A stretch of 64,000 nt of DNA. Origin: Kineosporia mesophila (GTDB lineage: Bacteria; Actinomycetota; Actinomycetes; Actinomycetales; Kineosporiaceae). Both the position numbers and the translations under genes were made by a program. Positions 40,783 through 49,022 of the stretch are shown here, piece by piece; the first letter of the stretch is position 1, and each line of letters starts with the position of its first letter. The DNA is taken from the NCBI RefSeq assembly GCF_021129235.1, contig NZ_JAJOMA010000010.1, forward strand, positions 186,001-250,000, written 5' to 3'. The notes beneath the pieces were generated by a model. The model had not been told where the DNA came from and searched no databases. It saw nothing but the letters and a program-made list of their open reading frames with translations.

Positions 40783-42402
40783 GTGCCGGCCCCGCTGCGC
40801 GAACCCGCGCCTGCCCGTTCCCTCGTCGACGTCGCGAGCGTCCTCGGTACCACCGTGCCGGACACTGCGCGTGACGTCGTGATCACTGGCGTCTGCCTGG
40901 ATTCCCGGGCAGTACGGCCCGGTGACCTGTACGCCGCGCTGCCCGGAGCGCGCACCCACGGCGCCCGTTTCGCCGCCGGTGCCGCAGAACTGGGCGCGAC
41001 GGCGGTGCTGACCGACCCCGACGGGGCGGAACTGGCGGCCGCCGCCGGATTGCCGGCGGTGATCGTTCCCCACCCCCGTCAGGTGCTCGGTGACCTGGCC
41101 GCCTGGGTGTTCGGCCGCCCGGCCGAGAAGATGCTGATGTTCGGCGTGACCGGCACCAACGGCAAGACCACCACGACCTTCCTGCTGGACGGCGCGCTGC
41201 GCGCCGGGCAGCGTCGCACCGGGCTGATCGGCACTGTGACCACCCGGTTCCTCGACGAGCAGGTCGACAGCGTGCGCACCACCCCGGAGGCCCCCGACCT
41301 GGCCGCCCTGATGGCGACGATGGTGACCCGGGGTGTGGACGTCTGCTCGATGGAGGTCTCCAGCCACGCGATCACCCTCGGCCGGGTCGACGGCATCCGC
41401 TTCGACGTGGCCGGGTTCACCAACCTCAGCCAGGACCACCTCGACTTCCACCCCACGATGGAGGACTACTTCGCCGCGAAGGCGGAGCTGTTCTCGCCGG
41501 AGCGCTCGCGGCAGGGCGTGGTCTGCGTGGACGACGAGTGGGGACGACGGCTGGCCCGGGAGGCGGGGGTGCCGGTCGTGACCTTCACCACCGTCGGCCC
41601 GTGGGCCGGAACCGACGACGCGAGCCCACCCTCGTCCTCAATCATCGAGGCCGACTGGCGTGTGACCGCCGCCCGCCCGCACGACGGGGGCACCGACTTC
41701 GTCCTGACCGGCCCGGCCGGCGTGACCGTGGACGCCCGCTGCCCGCTGCCGGGCGAGTTCAACGTGGCGAACACCGTGCTCGCGCTGCTCATGCTGGTGG
41801 CCGGAGGCATCGAGGCGGCCGATGCCGCCCGCTGGCTGGCCGACGCCCCCGCGGTGCCGGGCCGGATGGAACTCATCTCCCGCGCCGCCCCCGGGCAGCC
41901 CCTGGCCGTCGTCGACTACGCCCACAGCCCCGACGCCGTGGCGACCGCTCTGCGCGCCCTGCGCCCCTCCCTGGGGGCTGCCGGGGGGCCGCTGGTGGTG
42001 GTGCTCGGCGCCGGTGGCGACCGCGACCGCGCCAAGCGCCCGAAGATGGGCGCCGAGGCCGCCCGGCACGCCGACGTGGTGGTCGTCACCGACGACAACC
42101 CCCGTTCCGAGGTCCCCGCCGACATCCGCGCATCGGTGCTCGAAGGGGCACGATCGGTGAGCGGAACCGGCTCCGCCACCCCTGATGTGCTCGAGATCGC
42201 CGACCGCCGTCAGGCGATCGAGACCGCCGTCCGGCTCGCCGGGCCGGACGGGATCGTGCTGGTCGCGGGCAAGGGGCACGAACGCGGTCAGGAGATCGCG
42301 GGGGTCAAGCACCCGTTCGACGACCGGGAGGTGCTCGCCGAGGTGCTCGGGCGGGCCGGCGGCAATGTGGCCGCCCCGGTGCCCCAGGGCCAGAACCGGT
42401 GA
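40783..42402 (+). CDS. murE: UDP-MurNAc-tripeptide synthetase (meso-diaminopimelate adding)
   Basis: 539-residue Mur ligase adding the third residue of the stem peptide. All catalytic parts are present: GVTGTNGKTTTTFLL (P-loop near 122), MEVSSHAITLGRV, LSQDHLDFHPTMEDYFAAKAELF (carbamylated Lys), VVDYAHSPDAV and GKGHERGQ. DDNPRSEVP near 436 is the signature of meso-diaminopimelate specificity. GTG start from an apparent leaderless promoter. In contrast to the MurD-like gene, nothing is missing here. Confidence 0.95.
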   Translation: MPAPLREPAPARSLVDVASVLGTTVPDTARDVVITGVCLDSRAVRPGDLYAALPGARTHGARFAAGAAELGATAVLTDPDGAELAAAAGLPAVIVPHPRQVLGDLAAWVFGRPAEKMLMFGVTGTNGKTTTTFLLDGALRAGQRRTGLIGTVTTRFLDEQVDSVRTTPEAPDLAALMATMVTRGVDVCSMEVSSHAITLGRVDGIRFDVAGFTNLSQDHLDFHPTMEDYFAAKAELFSPERSRQGVVCVDDEWGRRLAREAGVPVVTFTTVGPWAGTDDASPPSSSIIEADWRVTAARPHDGGTDFVLTGPAGVTVDARCPLPGEFNVANTVLALLMLVAGGIEAADAARWLADAPAVPGRMELISRAAPGQPLAVVDYAHSPDAVATALRALRPSLGAAGGPLVVVLGAGGDRDRAKRPKMGAEAARHADVVVVTDDNPRSEVPADIRASVLEGARSVSGTGSATPDVLEIADRRQAIETAVRLAGPDGIVLVAGKGHERGQEIAGVKHPFDDREVLAEVLGRAGGNVAAPVPQGQNR

Positions 42403-42558
42403 CGCGCGCACCGCGCGGGCTCGGTACCGTGAGCGCCGCCCCATGGGCCCCCGGCAGGTACAGGAGACCGTCCGTCTGATGTCCGGCTCGATCACTGCTT
42501 CCCCCGGCAGCACGCCGGTTCCCACCCCCACACGAACGAGAGAGACCGAGGCAGCGTC
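42403..42558 (+). other. Gap in the position normally held by murF
   Basis: 156 bases between murE and mraY. Actinobacterial and most other dcw clusters have murF here (about 1.4 kb). No remnant of MurF is visible in any frame. Confidence 0.75.
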
Positions 42559-43644
42559 GTGAGAACGGTCCTGATCGCCGCGGCCGTATCGCTGGTCTTT
42601 GCGCTCTTCGGAACCCCGATCTTCATCCGGTTCCTGGTCAAGCGCCGTTACGGTCAGTTCGTCCGGGACGACGGCCCGACCTCGCACCACGTCAAGCGGG
42701 GCACCCCGACCATGGGTGGCGCGGTCATCATCCTCGCCACCCTGACCGGCTACACGGTGGCGCACGCCGTCACCCTGGACGGCCCGACGATGTCGGGCGT
42801 CCTGGTGCTCTACCTGATGACGGGTCTGGGTCTGGTCGGATTCCTCGACGACTTCATCAAGATCAGCAGGCAGCGAAGTCTGGGACTGACGGCCGGCGGC
42901 AAGCTCGCCGGGCAGTCGTTCGTCTCGGTGACCTTCGCGATCCTGACGCTCCAGTTCCCGGACAACGGTTTCCGGACCCCGGGCACCACGGCGATCTCGT
43001 TCATCCGTGACACCGCGGTCGACCTGGCCTTCGCCGGGCCGGTGATCGGTCTGATCCTCTACATCGCCTGGACCTACATCATCATCGCGGGCGCCAGCAA
43101 CGGCGTTAACCTGACCGACGGTCTGGACGGCCTGGCCACCGGCGCGAGCGTGATGGTGTTCGGCGGCTACGTGATGATCGGTATCTGGCAGTCCAACCAG
43201 TCGTGCCAGCTCGCCACCGGCGCCGGACCGCAGTGCTACGAGGTGCGCGATCCGCGTGACCTGGCCGTGGTTGCGGCCTGTGTGATGGGTGCCTGCTTCG
43301 GCTTCCTCTGGTGGAACGCCTCGCCGGCCAAGATCTTCATGGGTGACACCGGTTCGCTCGCCCTCGGCGGCGGCCTGGCCGGCCTGGCCATCACCACCCG
43401 CACCGAGCTGCTTCTCGTGCCGCTGGCCGGCCTGTTCATCATGATCACGCTGTCGGTCATCATCCAGGTCGGCTCGTTCAAACTGACCGGGAGACGGGTG
43501 TTCCGCATGGCGCCCCTGCAACACCACTTCGAACTGGTCGGGTGGGGCGAGGTCACCATCGTCATCCGGTTCTGGATCATCGCCGGGCTCTTCGTGGCGC
43601 TCGGTCTCGGAGTCTTCTACGCCGAGTGGGTGGTGGGTATATGA
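42559..43644 (+). CDS. mraY: Phospho-N-acetylmuramoyl-pentapeptide transferase
   Basis: 361-residue polytopic enzyme that makes lipid I from undecaprenyl phosphate and UDP-MurNAc-pentapeptide. Signatures: [27 protein letters not shown] (Asp pair), [24 protein letters not shown] and [12 protein letters not shown]. The stop overlaps the next gene (ATGA). Confidence 0.95.
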
Positions 43645-45098
43645 GCGACCCCCGGGCCCATGAGTGGAACGGCCTGCGGGTCGTCGTCGCCGGGATCGGG
43701 ATCTCCGGTTTCGCCTGTGCGGACGCCCTGCTCGAGCGGGGCGCGCAGGTCGTCGTGGTGGATCACACCGATGCCGGCTCGCGCGGGGAGCGCGGCACCG
43801 TGCTGGGCATGCTGGGCGCGGACATCCGCCTCGGCGCCGAGCACGTCACCGCCCTGCCCGCCGTGGACGGCGAGCCCGCTCAGCTGCTGATCGTCTCGCC
43901 GGGCTGGGCCGACGACCAGCCGGTGCTCGCCGGCGCGCTCGCCGCGGGCATCCCGGTCTGGGCCGAGGCCGAGCTGGCCTGGCGCCTGCGGCCCGCCGGG
44001 AGGCCGGCCCCCTGGCTGACCGTCACCGGCACCCGGGGCAAGGCCACCACCACCACGATGCTGGCCACCATGCTGGCGGCCGACGGCAGGCGCGCGACCT
44101 CCACCGGGCAGGCGGGCACCTCGCTGCTGGAATCGGTACTGCACCCGGAGCCGTACGACGTGCTCGCCGTGCAGCTGTCGGCGTTCCAGCTGCGCTGGTC
44201 GTCCAGCGTGCAGCCGCTGGCGTCGGTGTGCCTGAACGTCGGCCCGGCCGACACCGGCAGCCTGGCCGCGCGCGGGCTGGTCTACCGCAACACCGAGATC
44301 GCCTGCGTCTACAACGTCGCCGACGAGGCCACCGAGCAGCTGGTGCGCGACGCCGAGGTGATCGAGGGCGCCCGCGCCATCGGTTTCAGCGGTGGGGTGC
44401 CCGCCGTGTCGATGCTCGGCCTGGTCGAGGACGTGCTCTGCGATCGGGCGTTCGTGCCTCAGCGGGCCACCGCGGCCGCCGAACTGGGCACGATCGACGA
44501 CGTGCGCACCGCCGGGGCCGGCGTGCTGGCCGCCCACAACGTGCTCAACGCCCTGGCCGCCGCCTCGCTGGCGCGGGCGTTCGGCGTCGTCCCGTCGGCC
44601 GTGCGCGACGGGCTGCGTCACTACTACCCGTTGCCGCACCGGCTGAACCTGCTGCAGAAGACGAACGACGTGGACTGGGTGGACGACTCGTCGGCCACCG
44701 ATGCCTACGCGGCCGCGGCCGGGCTGGCGAGTTTCGCCTCCGTGGTCTGGATCGCGGGTGGCTACGGACCGGCTCCGGACGACCTGGACGCGGTGGTCGA
44801 GAAGTACGCGGCCCGGCTGCGCGGGGTCGTGCTGCTGCCCGGCGACGGCACGTCCGCGCTGCGGGAGGCCCTCGGCCGACACGCCCCGGATGTCCCGGTC
44901 CTGGATGCCGCCGTCACCGAGACTGGGGGGATGCCTGAGATCGAGCCGGTGATGCGGTCTGCCGTCGAACGCGCCGGCGACCTCGCCCGGCCCGGCGACA
45001 CGGTGCTCTACTCACCGGTTCTCGCGGCCCGCGAGGGTGAGCCGTTCTCGGCCCGGGGCCAGGCGTTCGCCCTCGCCCTGAAAGACGTGCCGGCGTGA
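43641..45098 (+). CDS. MurD-like protein lacking catalytic residues (probable pseudoenzyme)
   Basis: 485 residues, in the murD position and of MurD length and domain order, with recognisable MurD stretches ([66 protein letters not shown]). The active-site motifs are lost: P-loop GTNGKT is GTRGKA (near 130); GNxG is GQAG; the Glu of ExSSFQL is Gln (QLSAFQL, near 178); DHLDxH is ADTGSL (near 202) and the carbamylated Lys is absent; DDSKATN is DDSSATD (near 348); SPACASxDxF is [12 protein letters not shown] (near 457). It should not ligate D-Glu. Four-base overlaps with mraY and ftsW keep it in the operon. It may be structural or regulatory. Confidence 0.85.
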
Positions 45099-46363
45099 CG
45101 GTCACCGTCGAACCGCCGCTGGTCGGCGGGGCCCGGGACGGGGACTCGCTCTCGCAGCGCGTCGCCGGGCGGCTGAACTCGCCGCTCACCTCGTACTACC
45201 TGGTGTTCGGGGCGACTGTCGCGCTGACCTGCATCGGTCTGGTGATGGTGCTGTCCAGCTCCAGCGTCGAGTCGATCGCCGACGGCGCCTCGCCGTTCAC
45301 CGAGTTCTGGCGGCAGGCGATGTTCGCCGCGATCGGGGTGCCGGCGATGCTCGTGGCCATGCGCATCCCGGTGCGCACGTGGCAGGTGCTGGGGTGGCCG
45401 CTGCTGCTCCTGTCGTTCGTGCTGCAGATGCTCACCTTCGTGCCCGGCATCGGTGTCGGCGCCAAGGGCAACCACGGCTGGATCCTCATCGCCGGTTTCA
45501 CCCTGCAGCCCGCCGAGGTCGGCAAGTTCGCCCTGATCGTCTGGGGCGCCACCGTGCTGGTGCGCAAGCGCCCGCTGATGGACCAGCCGCTGCACGCCCT
45601 GATCCCGGTGGTGCCGGGCGCCGGTGTACTGCTCCTGCTCATCCTGGGCGGGAAAGACCTGGGCACGGCGATGGTGGTCATGGCGATCATGGCCGGGCTG
45701 CTCTTCGTGGCCGGGGCCCCGCTGCGCATCTTCGCCGCGGCCTCGGGGGTACTGCTGCTGGCGGTGCTCGCGCTGGCGCAGACCGGTAACCGCCTCGACC
45801 GGATCGGCAGCTGGCTGAACGGCTGCTCCGCCACCAGCGCGGACGCCATGGGTGCCTGCTTCCAGAGCGTGCACGGCCAGTGGGCCCTGGCCTCCGGCGG
45901 GTGGTGGGGCGTGGGCCTCGGCGCCAGCCGGGAGAAGTGGGGCCTGCTGCCCGAGGCGCACAACGACTTCATCTTCGCCATCGTCGGCGAGGAGCTCGGC
46001 CTGGTCGGGACGCTGCTCGTGATCGGCCTGCTGCTGACCCTGTGTCTCGGCCTGGCCCGGATCGTGCTGCGCACCGACGACCTGTTCGTGAAAATTGCTA
46101 CTTCGGGAGTTCTGATCTGGGTGGTCACCCACTCCGTCATCAACATCGGTGGGGTCATCGGCCTGCTGCCGATCGTCGGGATGCCGCTGCCGCTGGTCTC
46201 CAGCGGCGGCACGGCGCTCATCACGATGCTCGGGGCCCTGGGCATGGTGCTCGGGTTCGCCCGGCGGGAGACCGGGGCCGCGCAGGCTCTGGCCGCCCGG
46301 GTGGGCCTGGTCCAGCGGTCGCTGGCTGTGCTCCCGGTCCGGCGTGAGGGGAGGAACCGATGA
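45095..46363 (+). CDS. ftsW: Septal peptidoglycan glycosyltransferase FtsW (SEDS)
   Basis: 422-residue SEDS polymerase with about ten membrane helices. Conserved parts: VMVLSSSSVES, GNHGWILIAGFTLQPAEVGK, GGKDLGTAMV, the catalytic Asp in EAHNDFIFAIVGEELG (near 289) and the closing GVIGLLPIVGMPLPLVSSGGTA. It works with FtsI. GTG start overlaps the murD-like stop (GTGA); stop overlaps murG (ATGA). Confidence 0.95.
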   Translation: MTVTVEPPLVGGARDGDSLSQRVAGRLNSPLTSYYLVFGATVALTCIGLVMVLSSSSVESIADGASPFTEFWRQAMFAAIGVPAMLVAMRIPVRTWQVLGWPLLLLSFVLQMLTFVPGIGVGAKGNHGWILIAGFTLQPAEVGKFALIVWGATVLVRKRPLMDQPLHALIPVVPGAGVLLLLILGGKDLGTAMVVMAIMAGLLFVAGAPLRIFAAASGVLLLAVLALAQTGNRLDRIGSWLNGCSATSADAMGACFQSVHGQWALASGGWWGVGLGASREKWGLLPEAHNDFIFAIVGEELGLVGTLLVIGLLLTLCLGLARIVLRTDDLFVKIATSGVLIWVVTHSVINIGGVIGLLPIVGMPLPLVSSGGTALITMLGALGMVLGFARRETGAAQALAARVGLVQRSLAVLPVRREGRNR

Positions 46364-47448
46364 GCCTCTCCGTCGTTCTCGCCGGTGGTGGAACCACCGG
46401 CCACATCGCCCCGCTGCTGGCCCTGGCCGACTGCCTGCGCCGCCGTGACCCGGACACCCGCATCACCGCGCTGGGCACGGCCGAGGGCCTGGAGGCCCGG
46501 CTGGTCCCGGCCGCCGGTTACGACCTCCAGCTGATGCCCCGCGTGCCGATGCCCCGGCGGCCCTCGGCCGACCTGCTCCGGTTGCCCCAGCGCCTGAAGG
46601 CGGCCATCGACGCGGCCGCCGCGGTGCTGGACGACGCGGACGTGCTGGTCGGTTTCGGTGGCTACGTGTCGTCGCCGGCCTACATCGCGGCGCGGCTGAA
46701 GAAGGTGCCGTTCGTGGTGCACGAGGCCAACGCCCGGCCCGGCCTGGCGAACAAGCTCGGCGCCCGGTTCACGCCCTACGTCGGCGTCACCTTCCCGGAC
46801 ACGCCGCTGCGCGGGGGACAGGTGATGGGACTGCCGCTGCGCACCCAGATCACCGGTCTGGACCGTCAGGAGCAGCGGGAGACCGCCCGGGTGGCCCTCG
46901 GCCTGAAGCCGAACCAGACCACGCTCTTCGTCACCGGCGGCTCGCTCGGCGCGCAGCAGCTGAACGACACGTTCGGCGCGGCGGCGCAGATGCTGACCGC
47001 CGCCGGCATCCAGGTGCTGCACACCTCGGGCCGGGACAAGACCGTTTCGTTCCCGGGGGAGCAGCCGGCCGGTTACGTCGTCACCCCGTACCTGGACCGG
47101 ATGGACCTGGCCTACGCGGCGGCCGACGCCGTGGTGTGCCGGTCCGGCGCCGGCAACGTCAGCGAGGTCACCGCCCTGGGTCTGCCCGCGGCGTACGTGC
47201 CCCTGCCGATCGGCAACGGTGAGCAGCGCCTCAACGCGGAGCCGGTGGTACGGGCGGGCGGAGGCCTGCTGATCGACAACGAAGCGTGCAACCTGCGCTG
47301 GGTCGAGACCACCCTGTTGCCCCTGCTGAGCGACCCGGGACGGCTGAGTGCCATGGGGGACGCGGCCGCCCGGTTCGGGATCCGCGACGCCGATGAGCGG
47401 CTCGCGTCGATGGTCGAGGTCGCGGCCTCACGTGGAGGAGCCCGATGA
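46360..47448 (+). CDS. murG: UDP-GlcNAc:lipid I GlcNAc transferase
   Basis: 362-residue GT28 enzyme making lipid II at the inner face of the membrane. VVLAGGGTTGHIAPLLALA is the lipid/acceptor-binding G loop, VGFGGYVSSPAYIAA and VVHEANARPGLAN follow, and the donor site reads FVTGGSLGAQQLN and CRSGAGNVSEVTALGLPAAYVPLP. ATGA overlaps with ftsW and murC. Confidence 0.95.
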   Translation: MSLSVVLAGGGTTGHIAPLLALADCLRRRDPDTRITALGTAEGLEARLVPAAGYDLQLMPRVPMPRRPSADLLRLPQRLKAAIDAAAAVLDDADVLVGFGGYVSSPAYIAARLKKVPFVVHEANARPGLANKLGARFTPYVGVTFPDTPLRGGQVMGLPLRTQITGLDRQEQRETARVALGLKPNQTTLFVTGGSLGAQQLNDTFGAAAQMLTAAGIQVLHTSGRDKTVSFPGEQPAGYVVTPYLDRMDLAYAAADAVVCRSGAGNVSEVTALGLPAAYVPLPIGNGEQRLNAEPVVRAGGGLLIDNEACNLRWVETTLLPLLSDPGRLSAMGDAAARFGIRDADERLASMVEVAASRGGAR

Positions 47449-49022
47449 GTCAGAGCCCTGAACCCCACGACCAGGTGGAAGGCGAGCCCGGCGGCTCCCC
47501 GACCCCGAGCGTGCCGACCATGGCCGGTTCCCGGGTCGGTGGCCGGCTGTCCAACGAGGCCACCGTCACCAGCGCCTCCGGCGCTCCCCTGGTGGACGAC
47601 CCGATCCTGTCCGCGCATCTGATCGGCATCGGCGGCGCCGGGATGTCGGGCATTGCCCGGCTGCTCCTCGCGCGCGGTGTCGTGGTGTCGGGCAGCGACA
47701 ACCGGGACAGCCCGGTGCTGGCGGCCCTGCGGGCCGGTGGCGCGGCTGTCTTCATCGGCCACCGCGCCGACCAGGTGCCGGCCGGGTCCACCGTGGTGAT
47801 CTCCACGGCCGTGCGCCCGGACAACCCGGAGCTGGTCGAGGCCCGGGCCCAGGACCTGCGGGTGCTGCACCGCTCCGAGGCGCTGGCCGCGCTGATGACC
47901 GGCCGCCGCCCGGTGGCGATCGCCGGTACCCACGGCAAGACCACCACCACCGGAATGACCACGGTGCTGCTGCGCGAGTGCGGGCTCGACCCGTCGTTCG
48001 CGATCGGCGGCGAGCTGACCGAGGGTGGCCAGGGTGCGCACGACGGCGCCGGCGACATCTTCGTGGCCGAGGCGGACGAGTCGGACGGCTCGTTCCTGCT
48101 CTACCGGCCCGAGGTCGCGGTCATCACCAACGTGGAGCCCGACCACCTCGACCACTACGGCAGCCAGGAGGCGGTCGAGGCCGCCTTCATCGAGTTCTGC
48201 CAGCGGGTCAAGCCCGGCGGCATGGTCGTGGTCTGCGGTGACGACGAGGGCGTGCGCCGGGTGATGGAGAGCGCTGCGGACAAGCTCGCGGTCCACGCCG
48301 TGCGGGTCTGCCGCTACGGCCTGGGCGAGGACAACGACGTGCGCCTGGTCGACATCGACGACACCCCCGACGGCGTCAGTTTCGCGATCGAGGCCCGGCC
48401 CGACGGCACCCGCATCGGCCCGGTCACCCTCCGCGTGCCCGGCGTGCACAACGCCCTGAACGCCGTCGCCGCCTGGTGCGTCGCCCGGCACTTCGGGGTC
48501 TCCGGGGCCCCCGCGCTGACGGCGGTGCGCAGCTTCGGCGGCACCCGTCGCCGGTTCGAGGACAAGGGCTCCCACGACGGTGTGCGCATCGTCGACGACT
48601 ACGCCCACCACCCGACCGAGGTGCGCGCGGTGCTGAAGGCGGCCCGCAGCGTCACCGAGGGCCGGGTGCTGGCCGTGTTCCAGCCGCACCTGTTCAGCCG
48701 TACCCGGATCTTCGCCGAGGACTTCGGCACCGCCCTGTCGCTGGCCGACGAGGTGATCGTGCTCGACGTGTACGCCGCCCGGGAGGATCCCGAGCCCGGC
48801 GTCACCGGTGAACTCGTGGCGAACGCGGTCCGGCTGCCCCCGGCGCAGGTCGCGTACCGGCCCACCGCGTCGGCCGCCGTCGACGAGGTGCTGCGACGGG
48901 CCCAGAAGGGCGACCTGGTGATGACCATCGGCGCCGGTGACGTCACCGTCCTGGGCCCGGTGATCCTGGACGCCCTGCGGGCGGGCCGCTCCGTCGGCGA
49001 CAGCGACCAGCAGCCGGCATGA
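47445..49022 (+). CDS. murC: UDP-MurNAc-L-alanine ligase
   Basis: 525-residue Mur ligase adding L-Ala to UDP-MurNAc. Motifs are complete: GIGGAGMSGIARLLL, IAGTHGKTTTTGM, VAEADESDGSFLLY, TNVEPDHLDHYGS, GVHNALNAVAA, GGTRRRFE and VDDYAHHPTEVRA. The N-terminus has an extra polar stretch of about 50 residues. It serves as an internal standard against which the losses in the MurD-like neighbour stand out. Confidence 0.95.
   Translation: MSQSPEPHDQVEGEPGGSPTPSVPTMAGSRVGGRLSNEATVTSASGAPLVDDPILSAHLIGIGGAGMSGIARLLLARGVVVSGSDNRDSPVLAALRAGGAAVFIGHRADQVPAGSTVVISTAVRPDNPELVEARAQDLRVLHRSEALAALMTGRRPVAIAGTHGKTTTTGMTTVLLRECGLDPSFAIGGELTEGGQGAHDGAGDIFVAEADESDGSFLLYRPEVAVITNVEPDHLDHYGSQEAVEAAFIEFCQRVKPGGMVVVCGDDEGVRRVMESAADKLAVHAVRVCRYGLGEDNDVRLVDIDDTPDGVSFAIEARPDGTRIGPVTLRVPGVHNALNAVAAWCVARHFGVSGAPALTAVRSFGGTRRRFEDKGSHDGVRIVDDYAHHPTEVRAVLKAARSVTEGRVLAVFQPHLFSRTRIFAEDFGTALSLADEVIVLDVYAAREDPEPGVTGELVANAVRLPPAQVAYRPTASAAVDEVLRRAQKGDLVMTIGAGDVTVLGPVILDALRAGRSVGDSDQQPA

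Follow-up and report, generated by a model that had tools for sequence, protein, structure and literature searches.

Why would a bacterium keep, within its division and cell wall (dcw) cluster, a full-length MurD homologue from which most of the catalytic residues have gone? The question is raised by a stretch of 64,000 nucleotides of Kineosporia mesophila DNA (hereafter the window; contig C2, positions 186001-250000, of a 7.78 Mb genome assembly), in which a frame of 485 amino acids on the forward strand (43641..45098), here termed pseudo-murD, lies between mraY and ftsW and is recognised as a dcw MurD homologue by its open frame, family score, motif alignment and fold model. An earlier description made from the DNA letters alone (the sequence-only reading) had reported an intact, full-length MurD-like frame, and this is borne out by the open frame and by a score of 220.8 bits against the TIGR01087 murD model, above the curated cut-off of 211.95. 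We consider it likely that a swap to the MurD2/MurL route of D-glutamate (D-Glu) incorporation freed this dcw MurD from catalysis, and that it was kept for a second, non-catalytic task.

Loss of catalytic residues in Kineosporia

Eleven residues were scored from one joint alignment, namely the P-loop Lys, the P-loop Thr/Ser, the GNxG Asn, the ELSS Glu, the DH His, the carbamyl-Lys, the DDSK Lys, the DDSKATN Asn, the GGxxKG Lys, the ACAS Ser and the DxF Phe; we take the names and roles of these motifs to be those familiar from MurD biochemistry. The comparison set comprised six Kineosporia genomes (that of the window and G005-G009) and seven genomes of the same family from five other genera. 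All eleven residues are present in each of the seven sister-genus MurDs, whereas each of the six Kineosporia MurDs retains one, the P-loop Lys, in the window within a P-loop that reads GTRGKATT. None of the six retains the P-loop Thr, ELSS Glu, carbamylated Lys, DH His or any residue scored at the Glu site; in pseudo-MurD the His and second Asp of the DHLDxH region are deleted, the carbamylated-Lys site reads ARG and the DSKATN site reads DDSSATD. The alignment confirmed every motif change that the sequence-only reading had listed and added two further losses at the Glu site, GGLAKG having become GGYGPAP and APACASMDxF also being altered. Also conserved in the six Kineosporia copies are, within SSFQ, the first Ser and the Gln, along with Arg in PHR and with Asp, Ser and Thr in DDSxAT. 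The other five copies are 79-97% identical to that of the window, the closest named relatives being those of Kineosporia rhizophila (81%) and K. babensis (78%). Sequencing error as the origin of the changes is ruled out, because the identical ten of eleven losses recur in all six genomes.

Compared with canonical MurD (UDP-N-acetylmuramoyl-L-alanine--D-glutamate ligase, TIGR01087), pseudo-MurD is alike in descent and length, in lying between mraY and ftsW, and in predicted fold and family score, but differs in the loss of ten of the eleven key ATP (adenosine triphosphate), Mg and Glu residues. As in pseudoenzymes, catalytic motifs that are conserved in the homologous domain are absent from it. 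It resembles a functional MurD neither in these residues nor in its Pfam central and C-terminal domains: the MurD N-terminal domain is detected, Mur_ligase_C falls below threshold (24.8 against 28.4) and Mur_ligase_M gave no Pfam match at E<=0.01. We infer from the aligned residues that ligase activity has been lost, in agreement with the catalytic loss that had been proposed for this locus; an automatic murD annotation above cut-off is not equivalent to a D-Glu ligase.

Replacement by MurD2 and MurL

A second MurD with intact motifs, for which a search of the rest of the genome had been suggested, was found on contig C45 and is of the MurD2 type. This further full-length MurD-type protein (TIGR01087, 261.3 bits) has intact ligase motifs (TGTKGKSTT, GGNIG, EVSSYQ, PDH and DK), and its gene overlaps a murL homologue. 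The MurL homologue scores 335.4 bits against NF041275 over model positions 4-441 of 447, below the curated 700-bit cut-off; the model is named for Xanthomonadales, and the Kineosporia protein is a full-length distant homologue. In the pathway described in the accessible part of PMC8788868, MurD2 adds L-Glu and MurL then epimerises it to D-Glu, and the residues named for Xanthomonas oryzae MurD2 are Glu197, Arg358, Pro433 and Phe435. Judged by motif position only, Kineosporia MurD2 matches that of X. oryzae at the Arg, Pro and Phe, with Asp where X. oryzae has Glu197; Glu stands at this type of position in 20 of the 23 Nocardioides MurD2s introduced below. Pseudo-MurD is not itself the MurD2, since murL is on contig C45 and the window on C2, so that the two do not adjoin, and it has neither an intact P-loop nor Arg, Pro and Phe at the L-Glu-type positions (SPVLAA there).

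Within the family, MurL and the glutamate racemase MurI partition perfectly: MurL is found in every Kineosporia genome (6/6) and in no sister genome (0/7), and MurI scores above its cut-off in 0/6 and 7/7, respectively. The weak match to the MurI model in the window's own genome is an asp_race-family racemase (146 bits, cut-off 93.1; L009 1501-1884, G000:C45:241576-241959). The gene replacement is seen directly, and the swap to MurD2/MurL is the cause of the residue loss in the dcw MurD. The pathway, in the accessible part of PMC8788868 that of X. oryzae, Micromonospora and Salinispora, is shared by Kineosporia and by 23 of 196 Nocardioides genomes, with the two genes overlapping or adjacent; as a replacement enzyme pair it differs from the dead dcw MurD itself. 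The actinobacteria listed in that part of the source are Micromonospora, Actinoplanes, Verrucosispora and Salinispora, with neither Kineosporia nor Nocardioides among them, and the fate of the dcw MurD is not mentioned there. Kineosporia and part of Nocardioides can be added to the genomes with this route. Four of the six Kineosporia genomes also encode another MurL-like protein, a weak match at 27-32% identity (L061-L064; in the window's genome at G000:C23:192435-193433).

Origin and selection

The sequence-only reading had called the dcw copy a duplicate, a view that the phylogeny overturns. A tree of 88 proteins places the dcw MurDs in a single clade, in which the dead Kineosporia copies group with the sister-genus dcw MurDs and apart from MurD2 (support values 94 and 88, approximate after re-rooting). 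By this grouping the dcw copy is the ancestral murD, and a duplicate origin is ruled out.

Codon-model ratios of non-synonymous to synonymous substitution rates (dN/dS, omega) across the six Kineosporia genomes were 0.107 for the dead murD, 0.093 for murE, 0.112 for ftsW, 0.070 for murG, 0.068 for murC, 0.030 for mraY, 0.083 for MurL and 0.059 for MurD2. An omega of 1 was rejected for pseudo-murD, twice the log-likelihood difference (2dlnL) being 492 across residues 1-327 and 207 across the C-terminal domain, where omega was 0.127, and was rejected in all five regions of the gene (2dlnL 81-207). In a neutral simulation calibrated on third positions, the runs that kept all six frames open numbered 5, 0 and 0 out of 1000 under the three base compositions used. 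Pseudo-murD is not decaying; it evolves under purifying selection like its neighbours, and the test for such selection that had been proposed for this gene, with dN/dS near 0.1, supports its retention as a protein.

Recurrence in Nocardioides

A sample of 196 Nocardioides genomes provided a second case. MurL was found at E<=1e-40 in 23, 20 MurL-negative controls were taken from the remaining 173, and the DNA behind mraY was read for MurD in all 43. MurI scored above its cut-off in 0/23 MurL-positive and 20/20 MurL-negative genomes. The dcw MurD is without the whole C-terminal domain in 20 of the 23 MurL-positive, MurI-negative genomes and in none of the 20 controls, where it is full-length with intact motifs; Fisher tests ignore kinship and are descriptive only. 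All 20 cut frames stop 2-14 residues past a VRDG(L/V)(R/S) motif. One of them, in a genome that is 70% complete (G561; a 132-residue frame with the segment and helical end described below), is counted among the 20 but excluded from codon, motif and conservation counts, which therefore concern 19.

These 19 cut copies retain between 0 and 4 of the eleven key residues, and the P-loop Lys in 2 only. The losses vary among species, and G481 and G460 keep the P-loop Lys in a near-normal P-loop, so that stages of decay are visible. Switches between the dead and intact states number 5 on the MurD tree, in which long dead branches may attract one another, and 10 on a tree of mraY and ftsW; counts from polytomies (9-12) are not lower bounds and were not used. 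G481 is placed among intact relatives with a support of 99. For residues 1-327, omega was 0.047-0.053 in three clades taken as dead throughout; the fits labelled SisterIntact hel, B seg, B hel, A2 seg, B2 seg and B2 hel did not converge and were not used. The MurL match of G460 (L147) carries one in-frame TGA, yet a 471-residue open frame covers most of the model.

Predicted fold and retained regions

The AlphaFold2 model of Kineosporia pseudo-MurD has a mean predicted local distance difference test (pLDDT) score of 87.4 and the MurD fold, and that of the cut N. gilvus MurD has a pLDDT of 92.5, with N-terminal and central domains complete. Among the 50 best matches listed in a PDB fold search, the first 33 (Kineosporia) and 32 (N. 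gilvus) are MurDs, followed by MurCs; the best template modelling (TM) scores, by query length, were 0.78 to 8dp2 and 0.83 to 3lk7, respectively. The MurD fold is predicted from these models to be retained.

Conservation was assessed at sites invariant (at least 96%) in 49 MurDs that retain at least 10 of the 11 key residues. The N-terminal domain (residues 1-124; 43641..44012, forward strand as for all five regions) keeps 93% of its invariant sites in Kineosporia and, among the dead copies of Nocardioides, 88%; the catalytic half of the central domain, which has decayed (residues 125-215; 44013..44285, with the P-loop at 44028-44051), keeps 69% and 53%. A conserved non-catalytic segment that ends in GTIDDV (residues 216-288; 44286..44504) keeps 97% and 95%, the helical end of the central domain (residues 289-327; 44505..44621), where the cut Nocardioides copies end, 93% and 78%, and the C-terminal domain (44622..45095), which has lost its D-Glu and ATP-site residues and is absent from the cut Nocardioides copies, 67% and 2%.

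In the segment, 18 of 25 invariant sites are present in all 25 dead copies compared. Identity across the two genera, for dead and intact copies respectively, is 62% against 65% in the segment, 42% against 63% in the catalytic part, 54% against 73% in the helical end and 45% against 57% in the N-terminal domain. Segment omega was 0.025 in dead Nocardioides and 0.029 in the intact group (20 MurL-negative and 3 MurL-positive genomes). In the Kineosporia model the segment forms strands at 221-225, 245-249, 258-262, 265-268 and 280-284 and a helix at 229-237; because it aligns poorly and with gaps to three solved MurDs, it looks lineage-typical. Judged from the alignments, both genera conserve the N-terminal domain and one central segment and have lost the catalytic core.

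A proposed second, non-catalytic task

On the interpretation favoured here, MurD2/MurL would have taken over the D-Glu step, with L-Glu added first and D-Glu then made by MurL, and MurI would have been lost; the dcw MurD would then have lost its catalytic residues, and the protein would have stayed under purifying selection because of a second, non-catalytic task. The second role is probably contact with other proteins, those of division or of lipid II synthesis, and we can only guess that the partner belongs to one or other of these machineries; the structural or regulatory partnership with the lipid II machinery that the sequence-only reading had suggested is likewise still a proposal. Protein contact is taken as the likeliest role because the retained parts suit binding rather than ligation, and because of contacts described for Mycobacterium tuberculosis, where, in the accessible part of PMC3605390, protein-fragment complementation places all four Mur synthetases in contact with FtsW, FtsQ, FtsZ, Wag31 and SepF, with no contact among themselves.

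Several observations weigh against this interpretation. A survey of the class covered 394 genomes (the window's own included) and found MurL at E<=1e-50 in 23. Of the other 22, four have MurI above its cut-off (G110, G152, G336 and G068), and in one (G351) it falls just below (141.4 against 146.65). The dcw MurD motifs are intact by eye in four (G110, G152, G068 and G351), all of which have MurI or the near-cut-off match, and three are Nocardioides with a dead dcw MurD. The remaining 15 of the 22, however, have no catalytic or segment part of a dcw MurD, so the second role must be dispensable or absent there and is not universal; the relics found in these 15 were C-terminal only, in G210 and G336, and G336 has lost its dcw MurD although its MurI is above the cut-off. 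In G312 and G336 the contig runs out about 350 nucleotides past mraY, in G272 and G328 the sequence behind mraY contains runs of N, and in the g41 genomes no match to ftsW was obtained downstream of mraY; absence of the dcw MurD in G312, G336, g41, G272 and G328 rests on whole-genome search. Conversely, three Nocardioides genomes (G576, G545 and G501) are MurL-positive with MurI not above its cut-off, yet have a full-length, intact MurD.

The remaining objections concern selection, structure and function. Uncorrected Nei-Gojobori (NG86) ratios, which ignore codon bias, range in three Kineosporia pairs from 0 to 0.46 by pair and region, and intact Nocardioides pairs reach 0.48. In the catalytic part NG86 is as high as 0.63 (G481) and 0.58 (G442) for recently cut copies compared with two intact relatives, and constraint on this part therefore relaxes at first. 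Dead Nocardioides copies frequently carry changes in the glycine loop of the N-terminal domain, so that binding of uridine diphosphate (UDP) may also be lost. The alignments behind both structure models include intact relatives, the asp_race-family racemase is a conceivable alternative source of D-Glu, and the division-protein contacts in M. tuberculosis are common to all four Mur synthetases and not specific to MurD.

A more general proposal, on which we are evenly divided, is that actinobacterial MurD has two functions, D-Glu ligation and a structural part in division or lipid II synthesis borne by the N-terminal domain and by a central segment typical of actinobacteria, and that it has been stripped repeatedly where MurD2/MurL is present, with several independent C-terminal losses at one boundary in Nocardioides.

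Alternative explanations

The strongest alternative, though an unlikely one, is that the dead MurD serves as a regulatory or stabilising subunit of a cytoplasmic Mur enzyme (MurD2, MurL, MurE or MurC) and not of the division machinery. In its favour, all dead copies found sit in genomes with MurD2/MurL, and the dN/dS of the dead Kineosporia copy resembles those of its neighbours. However, the near-identical segment omega in intact and dead Nocardioides indicates, because constraint is equal in the two groups, that the duty of the segment predates MurD2; moreover, MurL-positive genomes without a dcw MurD exist, and the M. tuberculosis Mur synthetases made no mutual contact in the part of PMC3605390 cited above.

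New or residual catalysis, using the kept P-loop Lys and DDS residues, is distinctly less probable still. It would account for the retention in all six Kineosporia copies of that Lys together with the SSFQ Ser and Gln, the PHR Arg and the DDSxAT residues, but none of these copies has the P-loop Thr, ELSS Glu, carbamylated Lys or DH His, or the residues scored at the Glu site, and in Nocardioides the P-loop Lys survives in only 2 of 19 dead copies, with the C-terminal domain absent.

We regard as very improbable the suggestion that the frame is kept for operon reasons, whether translational coupling of mraY to ftsW or an RNA or promoter element within murD. The stop-start junctions on both sides are indeed shared by all six Kineosporia genomes, but omega is about 0.02-0.13 in the dead groups, and selection acts on amino acids, because synonymous sites diverge more than residues do. 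In addition, the 20 cut Nocardioides frames end 71-300 nucleotides before the first aligned ftsW codon (itself up to 26 codons into ftsW), a gap that leaves no evident stop-start overlap with ftsW whilst the segment is still conserved.

There is similarly little to recommend the idea of a pseudogene on its way out that is not yet broken. Staged decay is apparent, in that G481 and G460 are without the C-terminal domain but have a near-normal P-loop and other lineages are empty between mraY and ftsW, and NG86 is raised in the catalytic part of recent truncations; set against this are the dead state of all six Kineosporia copies at a dN/dS like that of essential neighbours, the six open frames that neutral runs so rarely preserved, and the low omega of the dead Nocardioides clades. 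That the dcw protein is a functional MurD, as its passing of the TIGR01087 cut-off and the MurD fold of its model might suggest, can be dismissed for practical purposes given the loss of ten of the eleven key residues in all six genomes and the presence elsewhere of an intact MurD2/MurL pair, with MurI not above its cut-off.

Relation to known systems

The MurD2/MurL route, its occurrence in some actinobacteria and pseudoenzymes as a class are already known; among the matches listed in a search of open-licence PMC text, we found no description of a dead dcw MurD kept after the swap, or of its recurrence. Because cytoplasmic Mur ligases are essential, any structural part that they may play in the division machinery is difficult to test, and the favoured second, non-catalytic task would make these loci a natural separation-of-function experiment, in which catalysis has been removed and the remaining residues mark the probable site of the second function. 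In Bordetella, MurG is said to act as a scaffold, with Mur enzymes in contact with division or membrane-step proteins. Scaffolded Mur enzymes of this kind combine contact and catalysis, which in pseudo-MurD would have been separated by evolution. The plant chloroplast MurE-like protein PAP11 is a Mur ligase homologue that forms part of the plastid RNA polymerase, and structures that we take to be PAP11-related (8w9z, 8wa0 and 8wa1) appear among the solved structures listed. Like pseudo-MurD, PAP11 is a Mur ligase homologue kept outside peptidoglycan synthesis, but it is a eukaryotic MurE homologue, whereas pseudo-MurD is bacterial, still in its own operon, and found in two genera at different stages. 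The M. tuberculosis Mur synthetases likewise contact division proteins (PMC3605390), but they are active ligases.

Neighbouring genes and further observations

On the forward strand of the window, pseudo-murD is preceded by murE (40783..42402) and mraY (42559..43644) and followed by ftsW (45095..46363) and murC (47445..49022). The sequence-only reading had stated that MurE and MurC keep every motif; both have intact P-loops and score above their family cut-offs. The overlaps that it reported with mraY and ftsW are also real: the junction tetramers are ATGA at 43641-43644 (mraY/pseudo-murD) and GTGA at 45095-45098 (pseudo-murD/ftsW), both the same in 6/6 Kineosporia genomes.

murF is absent between murE and mraY (window 42403-42558), and contig C56 carries two MurF-like genes (L005 and L007). 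A 222-residue open frame at G000:C11:124155-124541 (L008 1501-1887) fits, in its matched part, the MurC N-terminal domain only (124.5 bits to TIGR01082 positions 2-127) and is possibly another non-catalytic Mur fragment. In G336 and G210 (L156 and L157) the C-terminal MurD relic lies behind mraY and represents the opposite end of the protein from that kept in Nocardioides. In G029 and G184 (L153 and L155), two genomes of genus g41, MurL is encoded close to the dcw cluster or within it, roughly 1 kb past mraY and in the same orientation, and is followed by MurD2.

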